Positions 48,426 to 55,627 of a DNA stretch of 64,000 bases are shown one piece after another; within the stretch, counting starts at the first letter, position 1; every line of letters begins with the position of its first letter. The notes beneath the pieces were generated by a model. The model was not told the DNA's origin and did not search any database. It worked only from the letters and a program-made list of their open reading frames with translations. Origin of the DNA: Chitinophaga pollutisoli (lineage in GTDB: Bacteria > Bacteroidota > Bacteroidia > Chitinophagales > Chitinophagaceae); assembly GCF_038396755.1 (NCBI RefSeq), contig NZ_CP149822.1, positions 2,170,001 through 2,234,000 of the forward strand. The letters run 5' to 3'. The position numbers were made by a program, and so were the translations under genes.

Positions 48426-49151
48426 TAATATTCGGTCAACCGGCTAAGGTAGCCTAACTGAATTCGGTTTACCGGCATGGGCTACGTAACTGAATGTGGC
48501 TACATCTATTTGCGACGTAACTGAATACGGCTTACCGGCATATGCGACGTAACTGAGTACGCAATACCGGTATAGGTTGCCTAACTGATTACGGACTACC
48601 GGGATACACAACGTAACTGAATACGCAATACCGGTATAAGTTGCCTAACTGATTGCAGACTCCCGAGATACACGACGTAACTGAATACGCAATGCCGGTA
48701 TAGGCTGCCTAACGGAATGCGGACTACCGGTTGCACAACGTGACTGAATACGCAATACCGGCATAGCTGCCTAACGGAACGCGGACTACCGGGATACACG
48801 GCCTTACTGAATACGCAATACTGGTATAGGCTGCCTAACTGAATATGGTTTACCGGCATAGGCTGCCTAACGGACTGCGGACTACCGGTATATACGACGT
48901 AATTGAATACGCAATACCGGTATAAGCGACCTAACTAAATATGACCGGCATAGGCTACCTAACTGAATGCGGACTACCGGCATATACAGCGTAATTGAAT
49001 ACGCAATACCGGTGTAGTCTGCCTAACTGATTGCGGATTACCGGCAAATACGACGTAATTGAATATGACATTCCAGCATATGCCGCGTAATCAAGTACGA
49101 CAAACCAGGATATCCTGCGTAACTGAATACGACTCACCAGCATAGCCCTCG
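48426..49151. repeat. Array of about 22 tandem 32-bp units with 64-bp dimer structure
   Basis: Units begin with TAACTGA or close variants at 48455, 48487, 48518, 48550, 48582, 48614, 48646, 48678, 48710, 48741, 48772, 48804, 48836, 48868, 48900, 48932, 48960, 48992, 49025, 49056, 49088 and 49120; a degenerate one precedes at 48426. Spacing is 31-33 except one 28-base unit. From 48550 on, two kinds mostly alternate: one with AATACCGGTATA then a GGNTGCC end, and one with CGGACTACCGG then an ACNACG end. Nearly every unit has a CCGG-centred palindrome. Period 32 is not a multiple of three and there are no unique spacers, so it is neither coding nor CRISPR. Outer units are the most diverged. Confidence 0.93.
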
Positions 49152-49199: not shown

Positions 49200-49955
49200 C
49201 TAGTTCTTCATCTGCTTCTTTAGCATGCTCACCTGCTCCTGCAGCTGATTCACCATGCCGGCGAGATGGTTCACGCTCATTTTGTGTTGCTGCCCCATCT
49301 TCTGGATGACCGCATCGGCCTGCCAGATCTCCAGTACTTCCTCCATATTCACAGAATAGGGATCGTACATAGGATTATCGGAAGCCAGGGTTACTTTCGC
49401 TTTTGAACGATTGCTCTTGAGCACCCGTTTGTACACGATACCCTCGCGGTTCGTCACCACAATGTAGGCCTCGTTGTTCCGGATATCTTCCCAACCGTCT
49501 ACCTTATGGCAAACCACCACTGACCCCGAAGGCGTCGGCAACATCGAATCCCCCGCGATTTCGAAAGCGCGGTAATGACCCGCACCCAGCATCGGCAACG
49601 TAAATGTATTCAGCTCCTCGATGAATTCCTCATCATTGAAGCCCGCCAGGTAACCCGCAGCAGCCTTCACTGGAACAAATACCACATTCTGACGGTTCGT
49701 ACCGCCCAATTTCTGCTGGCGCCTCCGCTCCAGGAAAGTTTCCTTCTGGGAACTGAGATCGCGCCGCAACAAGTCGTCAATCGAAACACGGAACATATCA
49801 CTCACCTGCTCCAACACCTCCGTCCGTGGCTCTGCACGCTCCTCCTCATACGCACCCAGCAACGAACGCTTGATGTTGAGGCGGTCAGCAAATTCCTGCT
49901 GCGTCCAGCCCTTTTGCTTGCGCAGATATTTAAGATTTCGGCAAACAGTAGACAT
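49200..49955 (-). CDS. LexA-like XRE-S24 transcriptional repressor with self-cleavage motifs
   Basis: A 251-residue regulator counted from the ATG at 49955 (MSTVCRNLKYLRKQKGWTQQ). A longer frame to 50033 would translate through the operators, so it is rejected. The N-terminal XRE helix-turn-helix covers about 5-62. A predicted Ala-Gly cleavage site is A100-G101. The S24 peptidase domain has Ser137 (GDSM) and Lys176 (VYKRV), 39 residues apart as in LexA-type proteins. A C-terminal coiled coil (about 224-250) is an addition not present in LexA. Two CTAA-N5-TTAG palindromes lie directly upstream, and two more at dinB. I infer a repressor inactivated on DNA damage that controls itself and dinB-dnaE. 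Confidence 0.88.
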   Translation of the reverse strand: MSTVCRNLKYLRKQKGWTQQEFADRLNIKRSLLGAYEEERAEPRTEVLEQVSDMFRVSIDDLLRRDLSSQKETFLERRRQQKLGGTNRQNVVFVPVKAAAGYLAGFNDEEFIEELNTFTLPMLGAGHYRAFEIAGDSMLPTPSGSVVVCHKVDGWEDIRNNEAYIVVTNREGIVYKRVLKSNRSKAKVTLASDNPMYDPYSVNMEEVLEIWQADAVIQKMGQQHKMSVNHLAGMVNQLQEQVSMLKKQMKN

Positions 49956-49995
49956 CCCTAAATTATTTAGTACAACAATGCTAACAAAATTAGCA
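49956..49995 (-). promoter_or_regulatory. Promoter and twin operators of the XRE-S24 gene
   Basis: Operator 1 is TGCTAA-CAAAA-TTAGCA at 49979-49995 (perfect arms). Operator 2 is CCCTAA-ATTAT-TTAGTA at 49956-49972, touching the start codon. On the minus strand operator 1 contains TAATTTTG (49985-49992), an exact -7 box. Binding would therefore block transcription directly: autoregulation. Confidence 0.75.
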
Positions 49996-50037
49996 AACAT
50001 TTTTTGTAATAAAAAATTTAATCTGTGAGGCAACGCT

Positions 50038-50045
50038 TATTTTTG
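50038..50045 (+). promoter_or_regulatory. Predicted -7 box of the 4-helix membrane protein gene
   Basis: TATTTTTG matches TAnnTTTG, 21 bases before the ATG at 50067. Confidence 0.55.
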
Positions 50046-50066
50046 CCCCGGACAAACTCAAACAAT

Positions 50067-50531
50067 ATGCAAGCTTTGTTAGACATTCACTCGTACGTGC
50101 GTTGGCTGATCCTCGCATTCGGCATTATCGCCGTTTTCCGCGCCATTGCAGGCGTGGCCGGTAAAAAGCCCTATGGCCCAGGCGATGCCAAGGCAGGCCT
50201 CTTCTTCATGATCTTCCTGGACATCCAGCTGCTGATAGGCCTCGTTCTTATGTTCACCAGCTCCCTCACCCAAACCGCTTTCGGGGACATGGGCGCCGCC
50301 ATGGGCAACAAAGCCCTCCGGTTTTTCACCGTAGAACACACCCTGCTGGCACTCGTTGCCATCACACTCGTGCACATCGGCCGTTCCAAAATCAAGAAAG
50401 CTGACGGCGACGCCAAAAAGCAAAAGTTCGCCCTCATCTTCTTCGGCATCGCCTTCCTCTTCCTCCTCGCCCTCATCCCCTGGCCCGGCCGCGAAGAGAT
50501 CGGCAGAGCGCTGCTCCCGTCCCTCCGTTAA
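50067..50531 (+). CDS. Small four-helix integral membrane protein (often labelled cytochrome b-like)
   Basis: A 154-residue membrane protein counted from the ATG at 50067 (MQALLDIHSYVRWLILAFG); the frame is open 42 bases further but that part lacks coding character and contains the promoter. Four hydrophobic helices are visible (about 10-28, 45-68, 82-103, 118-137). Histidines at HSYVRW, VEHTLLAL and VHIGRSK could bind a metal or haem, which is presumably why relatives are called cytochrome b-like; this is not proven. Convergent with the SdpI-family gene. Confidence 0.7.
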   Translation: MQALLDIHSYVRWLILAFGIIAVFRAIAGVAGKKPYGPGDAKAGLFFMIFLDIQLLIGLVLMFTSSLTQTAFGDMGAAMGNKALRFFTVEHTLLALVAITLVHIGRSKIKKADGDAKKQKFALIFFGIAFLFLLALIPWPGREEIGRALLPSLR

Positions 50532-50550
50532 TGGTCTATACACCATAATA

Positions 50551-50586
50551 AAAAAGTAAGAACAGGTTTCCCCGTTCTTACTTTTT
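50551..50586. terminator. Bidirectional terminator
   Basis: AAAAAGTAAGAAC / GTTCTTACTTTTT perfect 13-base stem with a ten-base loop, between convergent genes, with T-runs on both strands. Confidence 0.9.
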
Positions 50587-50632
50587 TTATGCCCGGGATT
50601 TGCTTGCCATTATTCCCGTGCCATCCGACGGT

Positions 50633-51307
50633 TCAACCCTGCGTCTTATAAAATAACCGGTAAGAATAAATGTAAGGCAACGCCGCCAGCGCCATCCCCG
50701 CGAAAATAAACAGGAACACCCCGCTGATCACCGGTAAAAACATACCCGCCACCATAATCACAATGCCCGCATACAGCCAGAGCCGCCCCGCCATATGGTG
50801 CGTTTCCGTCCAGATCACATCGCTCGCCAGCGTCCACGGCGTCCGCACCCCAACGAAATAATTCGGCTTCAGGTGGCGGAGGAATACGCCCAGCGACGTA
50901 ATCAACAAACCCACGCCCACAAATACCCACTTCTCCACGAAAATCTCCTTGCTGCGGCTGATCAGGAATATCACAACAGCCGTAAACACCGCCAGGTATA
51001 TGTGTATCCGGAAACGGATACGATAATATTCACGCATATACATCCTGAAATCCGCCGGCGCCTCGTCCCAGGTTTCCCGCTTCGGTATATACCGGAACAA
51101 CGCGTACAGCATGCCATTCGTAAAAAAGAGGAATATCATCAGCAGGAGAAACTCCCGTTTGTTCACCACCCCGTCGGCCACTCCGTTGATATTGAAATTG
51201 GTGGGAATCTCAGCAGGAAGCCCGTTCCAAATCAATGCCAGGTACACCATCGGGCCGAACAACAGTACCAGCAGCAGGAACTCTTTCACATAATCCGTGT
51301 GCTTCAT
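50633..51307 (-). CDS. SdpI/DUF1648 family membrane protein
   Basis: A 224-residue protein with about six membrane helices. The N-terminal DUF1648 part has LALIWNGLPAEIPTNFNINGVADG; the C-terminal SdpI part has YFVGVRTPWTLASDVIWTETHHMAGRLWLYAG. SdpI is the immunity protein and signal-sensing partner of a B. subtilis killing factor, but most family members have no known role. Its start faces dinB across the operator region: the first operator there also contains a minus-strand -7 box (TAATTTTG, 51376-51383) about 69 bases upstream, so it may belong to the same regulon. Confidence 0.8.
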   Translation of the reverse strand: MKHTDYVKEFLLLVLLFGPMVYLALIWNGLPAEIPTNFNINGVADGVVNKREFLLLMIFLFFTNGMLYALFRYIPKRETWDEAPADFRMYMREYYRIRFRIHIYLAVFTAVVIFLISRSKEIFVEKWVFVGVGLLITSLGVFLRHLKPNYFVGVRTPWTLASDVIWTETHHMAGRLWLYAGIVIMVAGMFLPVISGVFLFIFAGMALAALPYIYSYRLFYKTQG

Positions 51308-51369
51308 AACGAAATGGATTAGTTCATCTATTAAAACAAACGCCGGATCTGTTTAGTTTATTTTTATTC

Positions 51370-51410
51370 TGCTAACAAAATTAGTTTTGCTAATATTTTT
51401 AGTAGTTTTG
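51370..51410 (+). promoter_or_regulatory. Promoter and twin operators of dinB-dnaE
   Basis: Operator 3 is TGCTAA-CAAAA-TTAGTT at 51370-51386 and operator 4 is TGCTAA-TATTT-TTAGTA at 51388-51404. The -7 box TAGTTTTG (51403-51410) overlaps the end of operator 4, and dinB starts 16 bases later. The first 15 bases of operator 3 are identical to operator 1 at the XRE-S24 gene. Confidence 0.78.
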
Positions 51411-51426
51411 GATAAAGACCCATCTT

Positions 51427-52650
51427 ATGCTGTTAGACGGCCAACGCACGATCGCTCATTTCGACCTGGACTGTTTCTTCGTTTCGGTCGAATGCCTGAA
51501 GGACCGCTCGCTGAAAGGCAAACCGCTGCTTGTAGGCGGGAAGAGTGACCGTGCCGTGGTAGCGGCCTGCAGCTACGAAGCCCGAACTTTCGGCATCCAC
51601 TCCGCCATGCCCATGAAAATGGCGCTGCGGCTTTGCCCGCACGCCATCATCCGCGGCGGAGATTTCGAGGAATACAGCCATTTTTCGCGGGAAGTGACCG
51701 ACATCATCGCCGGCTCCGCGCCTTTGTATGAAAAATCTTCCATTGATGAATTTTACCTGGATCTGACAGGCATGGACAAATATTTCGGCTCCCTCAAATG
51801 GACCAGCGAGCTCCGCCGGAAAATCATGCAGCAAACGCAGCTCCCCATTTCCCTCGGCCTCGCGTCCAACAAACTGATTTCCAAAGTCGCCACCAACGAA
51901 GCCAAGCCCAACGGCCAGCTTTCCATCCCGTTCGGTCACGAAAAAAGCTTCCTGGCACCCATGCCCGTCGAAAAGATTCCCATGGTAGGCAAGGAAACCG
52001 CCGCGCAACTCCGCCGCCGCGGTGTGGAAACGGTCAAGACCCTCAGCGAGATTCCCGTAGGCCTCCTGGAAGCCTGGATGGGCAAAAACGGCATTGCCTT
52101 ATGGAACAAGGCCAACGGGATCGACGAATCGCCGGTGGTACCTTTCCACGAACAGAAATCCATCTCCACGGAATCCACCTTTCCGCAAGACACCATCGAC
52201 CTGGGCTATATGCATAGCGAACTGGTCAGGATGACGGAAAAGATCGGTTTCGAGCTTCGACAGCAAAACCGCCTCACGGGCTGCGTCACCGTCAAGATCC
52301 GGTACTCAGATTTCGAAACGGTGACCAAACAACTGAATATCAACTATTCATCCAGTGACCATGTTTTGCTGAACCACGTTAAACAACTATTTACCAAACT
52401 ATATGACCGCCGCCTGCTGGTGCGCCTCATCGGCGTTCGTTTCAGCCATCTTGTTTCGGGTAATTACCAGATCAGCCTGTTCGACGATACGGAAGACATG
52501 ATTTCGCTTTACCAGGCCATCGACAGCATCAAATCACAGTTCGGCTGGCAGTACCTGATGCGCGGCAGCAGCAGCGGTGGCAATTTCGAGCAGCCGATGC
52601 AGCCATTCCGGAAAGCAACTTTTGTTATGAAACACAGATATCCGCATTAA
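51427..52650 (+). CDS. dinB: Y-family DNA polymerase (DinB / Pol IV type)
   Basis: A 407-residue translesion polymerase. Catalytic acidic residues are D13 (AHFDLDCFFVSVE) and D107-E108 (SSIDEFYLD). The palm, thumb and little-finger order is normal, and a beta-clamp-binding motif QISLFD is at 348-353. It starts behind a promoter carrying two copies of the XRE-S24 operator. The stop codon is one base before the dnaE start, so the two polymerases are co-expressed, a mutagenesis cassette comparable in role to imuB-dnaE2. Confidence 0.93.
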   Translation: MLLDGQRTIAHFDLDCFFVSVECLKDRSLKGKPLLVGGKSDRAVVAACSYEARTFGIHSAMPMKMALRLCPHAIIRGGDFEEYSHFSREVTDIIAGSAPLYEKSSIDEFYLDLTGMDKYFGSLKWTSELRRKIMQQTQLPISLGLASNKLISKVATNEAKPNGQLSIPFGHEKSFLAPMPVEKIPMVGKETAAQLRRRGVETVKTLSEIPVGLLEAWMGKNGIALWNKANGIDESPVVPFHEQKSISTESTFPQDTIDLGYMHSELVRMTEKIGFELRQQNRLTGCVTVKIRYSDFETVTKQLNINYSSSDHVLLNHVKQLFTKLYDRRLLVRLIGVRFSHLVSGNYQISLFDDTEDMISLYQAIDSIKSQFGWQYLMRGSSSGGNFEQPMQPFRKATFVMKHRYPH

Positions 52651-52651
52651 C

Positions 52652-55627
52652 ATGTACCTGAATTGCAAATCCTGGTTCAGCCTGCGGCACGGCACCATTC
52701 GTACCGACGAGCTCGTGGCCGTCGCGAAGGCGCACGGCATTACGTCGTTGGCGCTCACCAACATCAACGCCACAACAGACGCGTGGATGTTCGTGCAGGA
52801 ATGCATGCAGCACGACATCAAGCCCATCCTCGGGCTGGAATGCCGCAACGGCGCCGTGTTCCGGTACATCTTGCTGGCCAGGAGCACGGATGGCTGGCGG
52901 GAAATCAACCGTTTTCTGTCATGCCACCTGCGATCGGGCGAACCCTTTCCGGCGGAGGCTCCTTATCTCCCCGATACATTCGTTATTTACAATTGGGGCG
53001 CAAAGCCCCTCCCTTCGATGGCCGCACATGAACTCGCAGGCGTACGGCCCCGCGAGCTGAACAAACTTTTCCGCACCGACACGCGCCGGTATGCCGACAA
53101 GCTGGTCGTTCTACAGCCATTGAGTTTCCAGAACGAAGCATCGCAACAGCTGCACCGGGTGCTCCGGGCGGTTGACAACAACCTGCTGATCAGCCAGCTG
53201 CCCCCGGAGGAGGTTGCCGGAACAGACGAATGTTTCCTGCCGCCTAATCAACTGCTGGAGCAGTTTAAAGCGTTCCCGCATATTGTCCGCAACACCCTGC
53301 GGGTGATGGAGGAATGCAATATTCATTTCACATTTGGCGGGCATCTCAATAAAAAACGCTTTACTCATAGCCGCGAAAACGACCGCCAGCTCCTGCGCGA
53401 CCTCGCTTACGAAGGCATGGAATACCGCTATGGGATGGAAAATACGGAAGCGCGGCAGCGGATCGAAAAAGAGCTGGCGATTGTTGACCAGCAGGATTTC
53501 AACGCGTATTTTCTCATCACCTGGGACATTGTGCGGTACGCGCGGCACCGGGATTTTTTCCATGTGGGCCGGGGCAGCGGCGCCAATTCCATCGTCGCGT
53601 ATTGCCTGGGGATTACGAACGTGGACCCCATCGCGCTGGATTTGTATTTCGAGCGGTTCCTCAACCCGCACCGCACATCGCCGCCGGATTTCGATATCGA
53701 TTTTTCGTGGCGCGACCGCGACGAGATATTCGATTATATCTTTCAGAAGTACACCTCCGAACATACGGCACTGTTGGGAACGGTAGCCACTTTTCAGACG
53801 AACGCCATCGTCCGCGAGCTGGGAAAAATATACGGTTTGCCGAAAGGGGAAATCGACAAAATCCTCGAAAACCCTTACCAGGTGAAGCTCGGGGAAGACA
53901 ATGTGCACCAGCGCATCATCCGCTACGGGCGCATGCTCGACCGCTTTCCTAATCACCTGAGCATCCATGCCGGCGGGGTGCTCATCAGCGAAGCGCCCAT
54001 TCATCAATACTGCGCCACGCATATGCCACCAAAAGGGCTGAGCACCGCGCAGCTCGACATGCACCTGGCAGAGGCGATCGGCCTGCACAAGTTCGACATC
54101 CTCAGCCAGCGCGGCCTTGGGCATATCCGCGATTCGCTGGATATCATCAAGGAAAACCGCGGCGTGGATATCGACATTCACGATGTGAAGTCATTTATGA
54201 AAGACGTCCGCGTTCGCGACGCTCTTCGAAACGTGCAGACGATCGGCTGCTTTTACATCGAATCTCCCGCAATGCGGCAGCTGTTGCGCAAGCTGCGCTG
54301 CGACGATTACATCACGCTGGTGGCCGCGAGCTCGATTATTCGTCCGGGTGTGGCGCAGGCTGGCATGATGCGGCAATACGTGCTGAACTTCCATCAGCCG
54401 GATAAGGTCGAATACCTGCATCCTGTCATGAAAACGTTGCTGGGAGAAACTTACGGGGTGATGGTTTACCAGGAAGACGTGATCAAGGTCGCGCATCATT
54501 ACGCTAATCTCGACCTGGCGGATGCCGATACCTTGCGGCGGGCGATGGCGGGAAAGTACCGCGGGCAGCAAAATTTCGAGAAGATCAGAAATCTTTTTTT
54601 CGACAACTGCGAAAAGCTGGGGCGGCCGCGGGCGGTGAGTGAAGAAGTGTGGCGGCAGATCGCGAGCTTCGCCAACTTTTCATTTTCGAAAGCGCACTCC
54701 GCGAGTTTCGCCGTGGAAAGTTACCAGAGCCTGTACCTGAAAACGTATTTCCCGGCGGAGTTTATGGTGGCGGTGATCAATAATTTCGGTGGTTTTTACA
54801 ACCGGGAATTGTATTTCCGGGAGTTGAAGAAAACGGGCGCGCGCATCCACCCGCCCTGCGTCAACCGAAGTGATTATTACACCAATATCAAAGGAAACGA
54901 AGTGCATGTGGGGTTCATCCATGTGGAGAAGCTGGAGCAGGCCTGGATTGCATCTGTACTGGAAGAACGGGCGGCGAACGGGCGGTTCCTGGGGATGGAG
55001 GATTTCGTGAACCGTACGCAGCCTGCCCCCGCGCAGATGGAATTGCTCATCCGGGTGGGGGCGTTTCATTTCACGAAGGAGACAAAGAAAAACCTGTTGT
55101 GGAAGAGCGCGGCGTTGTTGCGGAAAGAGACAAAAGATCCTGCGAAACCGGGGCTTTTCCATGAGCCATCCCGCGACTGGACGCTGCCAGCGCTGGCTTA
55201 CCATGAGCACGAAGATGCCTTCGACGAGATCGAGTTGCTGGGTTTTCCGTTATCATCGCCGTTTGAAGTGTTACACCACGACCAACGTGCTTACCATTCT
55301 GTTTCTGACATGGAGAAAAATCTCGGACGGCAGGTAACGATGCTGGGATATCTCGTCACACTCAAGCATGTGTATACCATCAAGCAGGAGGCAATGTGCT
55401 TCGGCACTTTCCTGGACCGTGACGGCAATTTCCTGGACACGGTGCATTTTCCGGACAGCCTGCGCCGTTTTCCGTTTATGAAAAGCGGTTTCTACATCCT
55501 GGAAGGCACGGTTATCGAGGAGTTCGGGGTGTATTCACTGGATGTATACCGGATGCGGAAAATCGGTTATTTCGAAGATAAAGCGAAAGAAACCGGGACC
55601 GTCCGCGCCACACTCAATCCTGTTTAG
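52652..55627 (+). CDS. DNA polymerase III alpha subunit, error-prone DnaE2-like
   Basis: A 991-residue C-family polymerase, shorter than the replicative DnaE. The polymerase aspartates are in PDFDIDFSW (D348 and D350). A helix-hairpin-helix and OB-fold region follow toward the C-terminus. The N-terminal PHP domain is degenerate: the usual H-x-H start is YLNCKSWFSL and the usual LTDH is LALTNINAT, so metal-dependent proofreading should be absent. That, with the dinB partner and the operators upstream, marks it as the damage-induced mutagenic copy rather than the main replicase. Confidence 0.9.
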   Translation: MYLNCKSWFSLRHGTIRTDELVAVAKAHGITSLALTNINATTDAWMFVQECMQHDIKPILGLECRNGAVFRYILLARSTDGWREINRFLSCHLRSGEPFPAEAPYLPDTFVIYNWGAKPLPSMAAHELAGVRPRELNKLFRTDTRRYADKLVVLQPLSFQNEASQQLHRVLRAVDNNLLISQLPPEEVAGTDECFLPPNQLLEQFKAFPHIVRNTLRVMEECNIHFTFGGHLNKKRFTHSRENDRQLLRDLAYEGMEYRYGMENTEARQRIEKELAIVDQQDFNAYFLITWDIVRYARHRDFFHVGRGSGANSIVAYCLGITNVDPIALDLYFERFLNPHRTSPPDFDIDFSWRDRDEIFDYIFQKYTSEHTALLGTVATFQTNAIVRELGKIYGLPKGEIDKILENPYQVKLGEDNVHQRIIRYGRMLDRFPNHLSIHAGGVLISEAPIHQYCATHMPPKGLSTAQLDMHLAEAIGLHKFDILSQRGLGHIRDSLDIIKENRGVDIDIHDVKSFMKDVRVRDALRNVQTIGCFYIESPAMRQLLRKLRCDDYITLVAASSIIRPGVAQAGMMRQYVLNFHQPDKVEYLHPVMKTLLGETYGVMVYQEDVIKVAHHYANLDLADADTLRRAMAGKYRGQQNFEKIRNLFFDNCEKLGRPRAVSEEVWRQIASFANFSFSKAHSASFAVESYQSLYLKTYFPAEFMVAVINNFGGFYNRELYFRELKKTGARIHPPCVNRSDYYTNIKGNEVHVGFIHVEKLEQAWIASVLEERAANGRFLGMEDFVNRTQPAPAQMELLIRVGAFHFTKETKKNLLWKSAALLRKETKDPAKPGLFHEPSRDWTLPALAYHEHEDAFDEIELLGFPLSSPFEVLHHDQRAYHSVSDMEKNLGRQVTMLGYLVTLKHVYTIKQEAMCFGTFLDRDGNFLDTVHFPDSLRRFPFMKSGFYILEGTVIEEFGVYSLDVYRMRKIGYFEDKAKETGTVRATLNPV

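Follow-up and report, generated by a model that had tools for sequence, protein, structure and literature searches.

The window, the whole 64-kb stretch of the Chitinophaga pollutisoli chromosome analyzed here, contains on its minus strand a gene for an XRE-S24 regulator (hereafter lexA) and on its plus strand a polymerase gene pair, with two further genes lying in between (Table 1). The first gene of the pair encodes a Y-family polymerase of the PolY2 type, which an earlier note on this DNA had called dinB, and it directly adjoins the gene for a second-type DNA polymerase III alpha subunit (DnaE2B). Directly downstream of lexA lies a degenerate tandem array, for which no match was found in 10 other genomes searched, including one (G006) with an identical regulator.

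Table 1. Genes, operators, and promoter elements at the lexA and PolY2-dnaE2B locus, together with the imu cassette of the same genome.
Feature	Position	Strand	Details
Degenerate tandem array	48453..49148		32/64-bp units (about 19 copies of 32 bp)
Non-canonical LexA gene (lexA)	49200..49955	-	251 aa; ATG at 49955; stop codon included
Operator 1 of lexA	49958..49970	.	CTAAATTATTTAG; directly upstream of start codon
Operator 2 of lexA	49981..49993	.	CTAATTTTGTTAG on coding strand; exact-site scan
-7-like element of lexA	49985..49992	-	TAATTTTG; wholly inside operator 2
Gene between lexA and PolY2	50067..50531	+	No Pfam match
SdpI-family gene between lexA and PolY2	50633..51307	-	Pfam
Operator 1 of PolY2-dnaE2B	51372..51384	.	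CTAACAAAATTAG; exact-site scan
-7-like element	51382..51389	+	TAGTTTTG; 3-bp overlap with operator 1
Operator 2 of PolY2-dnaE2B	51390..51402	.	CTAATATTTTTAG; exact-site scan
Second -7-like element	51403..51410	+	TAGTTTTG; abuts operator 2
PolY2-type Y-family polymerase	51427..52650	+	407 aa; Pfam IMS 1.1e-46
Second-type DNA polymerase III alpha subunit (DnaE2B)	52652..55627	+	991 aa; Pfam DNA_pol3_alpha 2e-65
imuA-imuB-dnaE2A cassette	L095:1483-6978 (G000:C1:1301982-1307477)		Same chromosome as PolY2-dnaE2B

Pfam searches assigned an N-terminal HTH_3 domain (PF01381, 1e-13) and a C-terminal Peptidase_S24 domain (1.3e-9) to the regulator. At an E-value threshold of 0.001, its DNA-binding part matched only HTH_3 and related XRE families in Pfam, and no match to the NCBIfam lexA model was listed. 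Judged from these searches, the regulator is outside the canonical LexA sequence family. Furthermore, a search of the genome for S24 domains returned only this regulator and a UmuD-like protein, and, therefore, no canonical LexA was detected. Counted from the ATG, the regulator carries Ala100-Gly101, Ser137, and Lys176, which were identical in 30 of 30 aligned genus regulators (including the window's protein) and represent the predicted scissile bond and the Ser/Lys dyad of a putative self-cleavage motif. A structural model (29 sequences; mean pLDDT 68, pTM 0.49) comprises five N-terminal helices, with block means of 79-93 for residues 1-70, and a C-terminal domain rich in beta structure; it is poor over the linker and the cleavage-site region. 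The solved structures that best matched the regulator by sequence covered its HTH part.

For PolY2, D13, D107, and E108, which we take to be the active-site residues, are kept in 30 of 31 aligned genus sequences, with a gap in the remaining one, and QISLF at residues 348-352 is presumably a clamp-type motif. Residues 364-379, compared by eye, appear similar to the E. coli RecA N-terminus, and the key columns of this stretch are conserved in the 31 sequences. By its sequence, PolY2 is apparently an active Y-family polymerase. Within the adjoining 991-aa polymerase, the aspartates of PDFDIDF (345-351) and KFD (480-482) are present in 31 of 31 aligned sequences. This protein is 27% identical to the imu-linked DnaE2 of its own genome, and we infer its identity as DnaE2B from its partner gene only. 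An apparently active Y-family polymerase adjoining a DnaE2-type polymerase resembles the Bacteroidetes PolY2-DnaE2 pair, which, according to PMC6511836, consists of two apparently active polymerases in Cellulophaga algicola and forms a putative mutasome, equivalent to DnaE2B-PolY-RecA in PMC12926913; the possible RecA-binding-type motif read by eye in the window's PolY2 may be a further likeness.

Operators at the lexA and PolY2-dnaE2B promoters

Exact CTAA-N5-TTAG sites occur four times in the window, in two promoters only, while 0.38 sites (sd 0.58) are expected by chance and at least four were reached in 0 of 100 shuffles. This bears out the earlier note, which had reported four palindromes with the same core in just two promoter regions; its 17-mers correspond to the 13-bp sites with 2 bases on each side. 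The cleavage residues named above were likewise found where it had placed them, and its claim that an operator overlaps the -7 box at both genes holds as well, with the box being enclosed at lexA and overlapped by 3 bp at PolY2 (the -7 assignment being by consensus only). A scan of the window allowing one mismatch gave no excess (9 sites, 12 expected), and, therefore, only the exact core carries weight. No convincing -33 box was seen at the window's regulator; in most of the genus regulator promoters inspected by eye, a TTTG precedes the -7 box by 21 bp.

The earlier note had made its reading depend on conservation of the motif upstream of orthologous gene pairs, and such conservation was indeed found. 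CTAA-N5-TTAG is present in the regulator promoters of 30 of 30 genus loci fetched (of 60), each with two operators. Among 31 genus PolY2 loci, 29 have a site in the promoter stretch, and so do the imu promoters of 27 of 30 loci. Within 1.5 kb before dnaE, a site was identified at 52 of 59 distinct loci from genus and family (53 of 60 rows, one locus occurring twice) and was missing at the other seven, some of which are cut by the flank or a contig end. Among the matches listed for regulator promoters from named contigs (80 loci, mostly Sphingobacteriaceae by title), all 79 scorable ones have a site, and at the class level, a site within 250 bp was found in 18 of 29 promoters, these being the best 29 of 141 homolog genomes. 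Each of 11 permuted palindromes with the same letters was found at 0-4 loci per set, and spacers of 3, 4, 6, or 7 in place of N5 were found at 0 loci in the promoters of relatives.

The distal regulator operator reads C-TAnnTTTG-TTAG in 30 of 30 genus loci, enclosing the -7-like box in a fixed register; the text of PMC8565304, which describes related regulators (see below), makes no mention of an operator-enclosed -7 box as judged by a term search. We dropped the enclosed -7 box as a general rule, because it is found in all 30 genus regulator promoters whereas only one of the 79 named loci has it, and strict TAnnTTTG overlap is also rare in PolY2 promoters (6 of 60 rows).

All 60 genus genomes drawn, the window's among them, encode an ortholog of the regulator with 78-100% identity. 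The window's regulator is 40-46% identical to 28 aligned relatives, which come from named contigs and are mostly from Sphingobacteriaceae, and a homolog exists in 141 of 197 class-level genomes. In 55 of the 60 genus genomes, the best match to dnaE is located on the strand opposite the regulator, at a distance of 2.6-3.5 kb; of the exceptions, four have dnaE elsewhere or on another contig (G009, G014, G031, and G045) and one has none (G050). No such PolY2-dnaE2B neighborhood of the regulator was seen in the available parts of PMC8565304. Outside the genus, a DnaE2B-type protein was identified in 37 of 117 family genomes drawn (E 1e-150), and at 13 of 27 loci from other genera, an operator is at most 175 bp away from dnaE2B, with no polymerase detected in between by a search for reading frames (L071, L074, L075, L078, L080, L081, L083-L087, L090, and L091).

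Sites across the chromosome and the proposed SOS circuit

The single 6.08-Mb contig harbors 27 exact sites compared to 86 for a backwards-pattern control. Genome-wide enrichment was therefore rejected as evidence: the count alone proves nothing, and the signal lies in placement and tandem pairs. Four tandem pairs, 18-23 bp apart, are located at lexA, PolY2, a radical SAM gene, and umuD, while 0.005 pairs within 40 bp would be expected under even and independent placement (Poisson P of about 2e-11). By our own sorting, 13 of the 27 sites belong to nine SOS-type units: lexA (2 sites), PolY2-dnaE2B (2), imuA-imuB-dnaE2A (1), umuD (2), umuC (1), recA (1), a PA0069-family radical SAM gene (2), which is perhaps the splB of PMC8565304, a gene for a topoisomerase B-type subunit (1; DNA gyrase/topoisomerase IV, type II, identified from a partial protein), and the shared radC/prs intergenic region (1). 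Since the motif falls within the longest reading frame at umuC, at the topoisomerase gene, and at the second umuD site, a later start codon was assumed for these genes. The genome scan that the earlier note had suggested places about half of the sites at SOS-type units, while 14 of the 27 have no clear SOS link, 9 of them being intergenic or near gene starts and 5 inside reading frames. The genes at these nine sites, which have no known SOS role, include queuine tRNA-ribosyltransferase, 2'-5' RNA ligase-like, ROK-family, and IS1595-like genes. The sites at L021:4280-4292 and L024:4390-4402 precede the queuine tRNA-ribosyltransferase and the 2'-5' RNA ligase-like gene, respectively, and that at L003:1501-1513 precedes a gene for a 138-aa protein without Pfam match; these three genes are possible additional regulon members.

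A regulator family with this exact motif was published in 2021 as "non-canonical LexA" of Bacteroidetes. PMC8565304 describes gel shifts for the P. actiniarum protein (WP_025606010.1) as well as mitomycin C induction, and it attributes large CTAA regulons to three families (Hymenobacteraceae, Sphingobacteriaceae, and Chitinophagaceae). Consequently, the earlier note's view of this lineage as one with little-described SOS control does not hold. A literature search on the SOS response, LexA, or ImuB of Chitinophaga found only PMC8565304. As far as described there, the window's regulator shares with its P. actiniarum counterpart the HTH_3 and S24 domains, the Ala-Gly and Ser-Lys residues, and an identical operator, which is likewise found at its own promoter and at error-prone polymerase and recA targets; binding and induction were shown for the homolog and are predicted for the window's regulator. 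The proposed circuit would also resemble that of E. coli, in which damage leads to cleavage of LexA, an S24 protein that represses recA, umuDC, and polymerase genes; the window's regulator differs from E. coli LexA in its HTH_3 DNA-binding domain, its operator, and its sequence family.

We consider it very probable (about 93%) that the XRE-S24 protein is a non-canonical LexA running the Bacteroidota SOS master circuit, including PolY2-dnaE2B. Here, this reading is based on the sites, their placement and conservation, and the regulator residues, with binding and induction shown for a homolog (PMC8565304). A dimer of the regulator would bind the paired operators over the -7 region of both promoters and keep lexA and PolY2-dnaE2B off through occlusion of the -7 box. 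Upon DNA damage, RecA filaments would trigger self-cleavage at Ala100-Gly101 by Ser137/Lys176, which would release both promoters as well as recA, umuD, umuC, imuA-imuB-dnaE2A, radC, and others; PolY2, with its putative clamp-type and RecA-binding-type motifs, and DnaE2B would then work in lesion bypass.

It could be argued that the regulator controls only itself and PolY2-dnaE2B, similar to HdiR or UmuDAb, with all other sites being due to chance, as the conserved adjacency of regulator and PolY2-dnaE2B and a genome-wide count not above the backwards control would suggest. However, tandem pairs are also found at umuD and the radical SAM gene, recA and imuA have sites, the imu operators recur in relatives, and the published regulons are broad (PMC8565304), which renders such a local switch highly unlikely. 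An activating instead of a repressing role is slightly less probable still: the same source states that activation cannot be excluded without a non-cleavable mutant, but the -7-like box (consensus-assigned) that is enclosed by an operator in 30 of 30 genus regulator promoters represents the geometry of a repressor. The least probable explanation is that the protein is the CI-type repressor of a relict prophage and that the sites near PolY2 are coincidental. While the best phage-family match of the regulator is indeed a transcriptional repressor (phrog_4, 6.6e-24), and a phage-repressor origin of the family was proposed in PMC8565304, its presence in all genus genomes drawn, the synteny in 55 of 60, and the fact that host genes such as recA, umuD, and imuA carry the motif as well largely refute this idea.

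The damage-response switch proposed in the earlier note is well supported by comparison, namely by the conserved operators, the same motif at recA, umuD, umuC, imuA, and radC, and the invariant cleavage motif. It does not stand alone, the polymerase operon being one of about nine targets. The window's system is a typical copy of the SOS circuit already described for the phylum and, as such, independently confirms it, with a set of likely targets that can be named in this genome. New are the adjacency of regulator and polymerase genes in 55 of 60 genomes, the enclosed -7-like box, and, as detailed below, the coexistence of DnaE2B and ImuB in 40 of 80 genomes and the 11 of 43 imu cassettes linked to a regulator paralog.

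Probable coexistence of two putative mutasome types

Besides PolY2-dnaE2B, the chromosome encodes an imuA-imuB-dnaE2A cassette, whose longest imuA frame is preceded at about 11 bp by a CTAA-N5-TTAG site. The imuA product (253 aa) scores 58.9 of 150 bits, which is under the NCBIfam ImuA cut-off, at an E-value of 6e-16; the imuB product (501 aa) lacks the catalytic aspartates as judged by eye; and the dnaE2A product has 1072 aa. Among 80 genomes with a DnaE2B-type protein (46 from the genus and 34 from other genera, with 15 further genus genomes left out), 40 have an ImuB match with an E-value of 1e-40 or better, although the matches in G031 and G164 are incomplete or fragmented. According to PMC12926913, genomes with DnaE2B-PolY-RecA are without ImuA and ImuB. 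If the 991-aa protein is DnaE2B, as its partner suggests, the coexistence with ImuB would conflict with this generalization. Because the gene pair itself fits, we treat the presence of ImuA/ImuB as an exception to the rule and have lowered our confidence in the formal assignment accordingly. Mutasome types that were described as mutually exclusive would thus share genomes and, moreover, the same operator motif.

imu-linked S24 paralogs and their candidate operators

In 11 of 43 distinct imu cassettes (41 from the ImuB survey plus those of G054 and G059), a regulator homolog is encoded head-to-head with imuA, and none of these 11 has a CTAA site (L160-L166, L168, L169, L289, and L291). In comparison, 30 of the 32 cassettes without a paralog neighbor in the fetched stretch have a CTAA site; for the 30 shorter imu loci, this stretch covers roughly 650-770 bp beyond imuA. 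Since eight of the 11 are close relatives, the cases are not independent. The paralog-linked imu promoters carry N7-spaced palindromes instead, namely TTGGCATTATTANTGCCAA in the eight close genus members, GTCA-N7-TGAC in G001 and G159, and GGTA-N7-TACC in G076. In a pattern search for the paralog's operator that allowed three mismatches, the matches listed were mostly noise, and only those with 0-1 mismatch were considered. The remaining two cassettes (L290 and L292), which lack both a CTAA site and an adjacent paralog, have GTCA-N7-TGAC, and L290 belongs to G159, which carries such a paralog elsewhere. Furthermore, a second PolY2-dnaE2B cassette in G041 (L305:4825-4862) has GGCA-N7-TGCC and GTCA-N7-TGAC and no CTAA site, whereas the other PolY2-dnaE2B cassettes away from the regulator have CTAA in 10 of 10 cases.

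Nine aligned genus paralogs differ from the window's regulator at residues 32, 34, 36, and 38-40, which lie in and just after the recognition helix, and keep the cleavage residues (L289 and L291 are outside this alignment and the following tree). Residues 32 and 39 are less telling, as they also vary among class-level relatives. In a midpoint-rooted tree, one branch with 100/100 support separates 19 genus paralogs from the regulator orthologs, and a recent duplication of the window's regulator as the source of the imu-linked paralog was rejected on this basis; the imu-linked paralogs in the tree do not form one single group. A further S24 paralog class (L170-L178), about 37-40% identical to the regulator, lacks a CTAA site in the stretch fetched, and we saw neither a polymerase match among its neighbors nor a common palindrome.

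From these observations, the idea that mutagenesis in the genus and family is split between two self-cleaving repressors, the main LexA and a deep S24 paralog adjacent to imuA, has about an even chance of being correct. The main LexA would control lexA, PolY2-dnaE2B, and most of the SOS regulon through CTAA-N5-TTAG, and the paralog would run the ImuA-ImuB-DnaE2A cassette in some genomes, and the second PolY2-dnaE2B in one, through GGCA-N7-TGCC, GTCA-N7-TGAC, or GGTA-N7-TACC. A precedent for a diverged operator is the regulator of E. anophelis (Weeksellaceae), which is encoded beside an error-prone polymerase and recognizes TTAC-N5-GTAA according to PMC8565304, the only paper found in a search for imu-linked S24 repressors; its operator differs from the N7-spaced palindromes of the imu-linked promoters. 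If true, an operator hand-off would be visible inside a single genus, where orthologous cassettes would be controlled by one repressor or the other and the imu cassette would seem to switch repressor and operator together. Such a co-switch would make a proposed model of SOS-motif evolution, in which duplication of a regulator is followed by the take-over of targets, testable on orthologous promoters.
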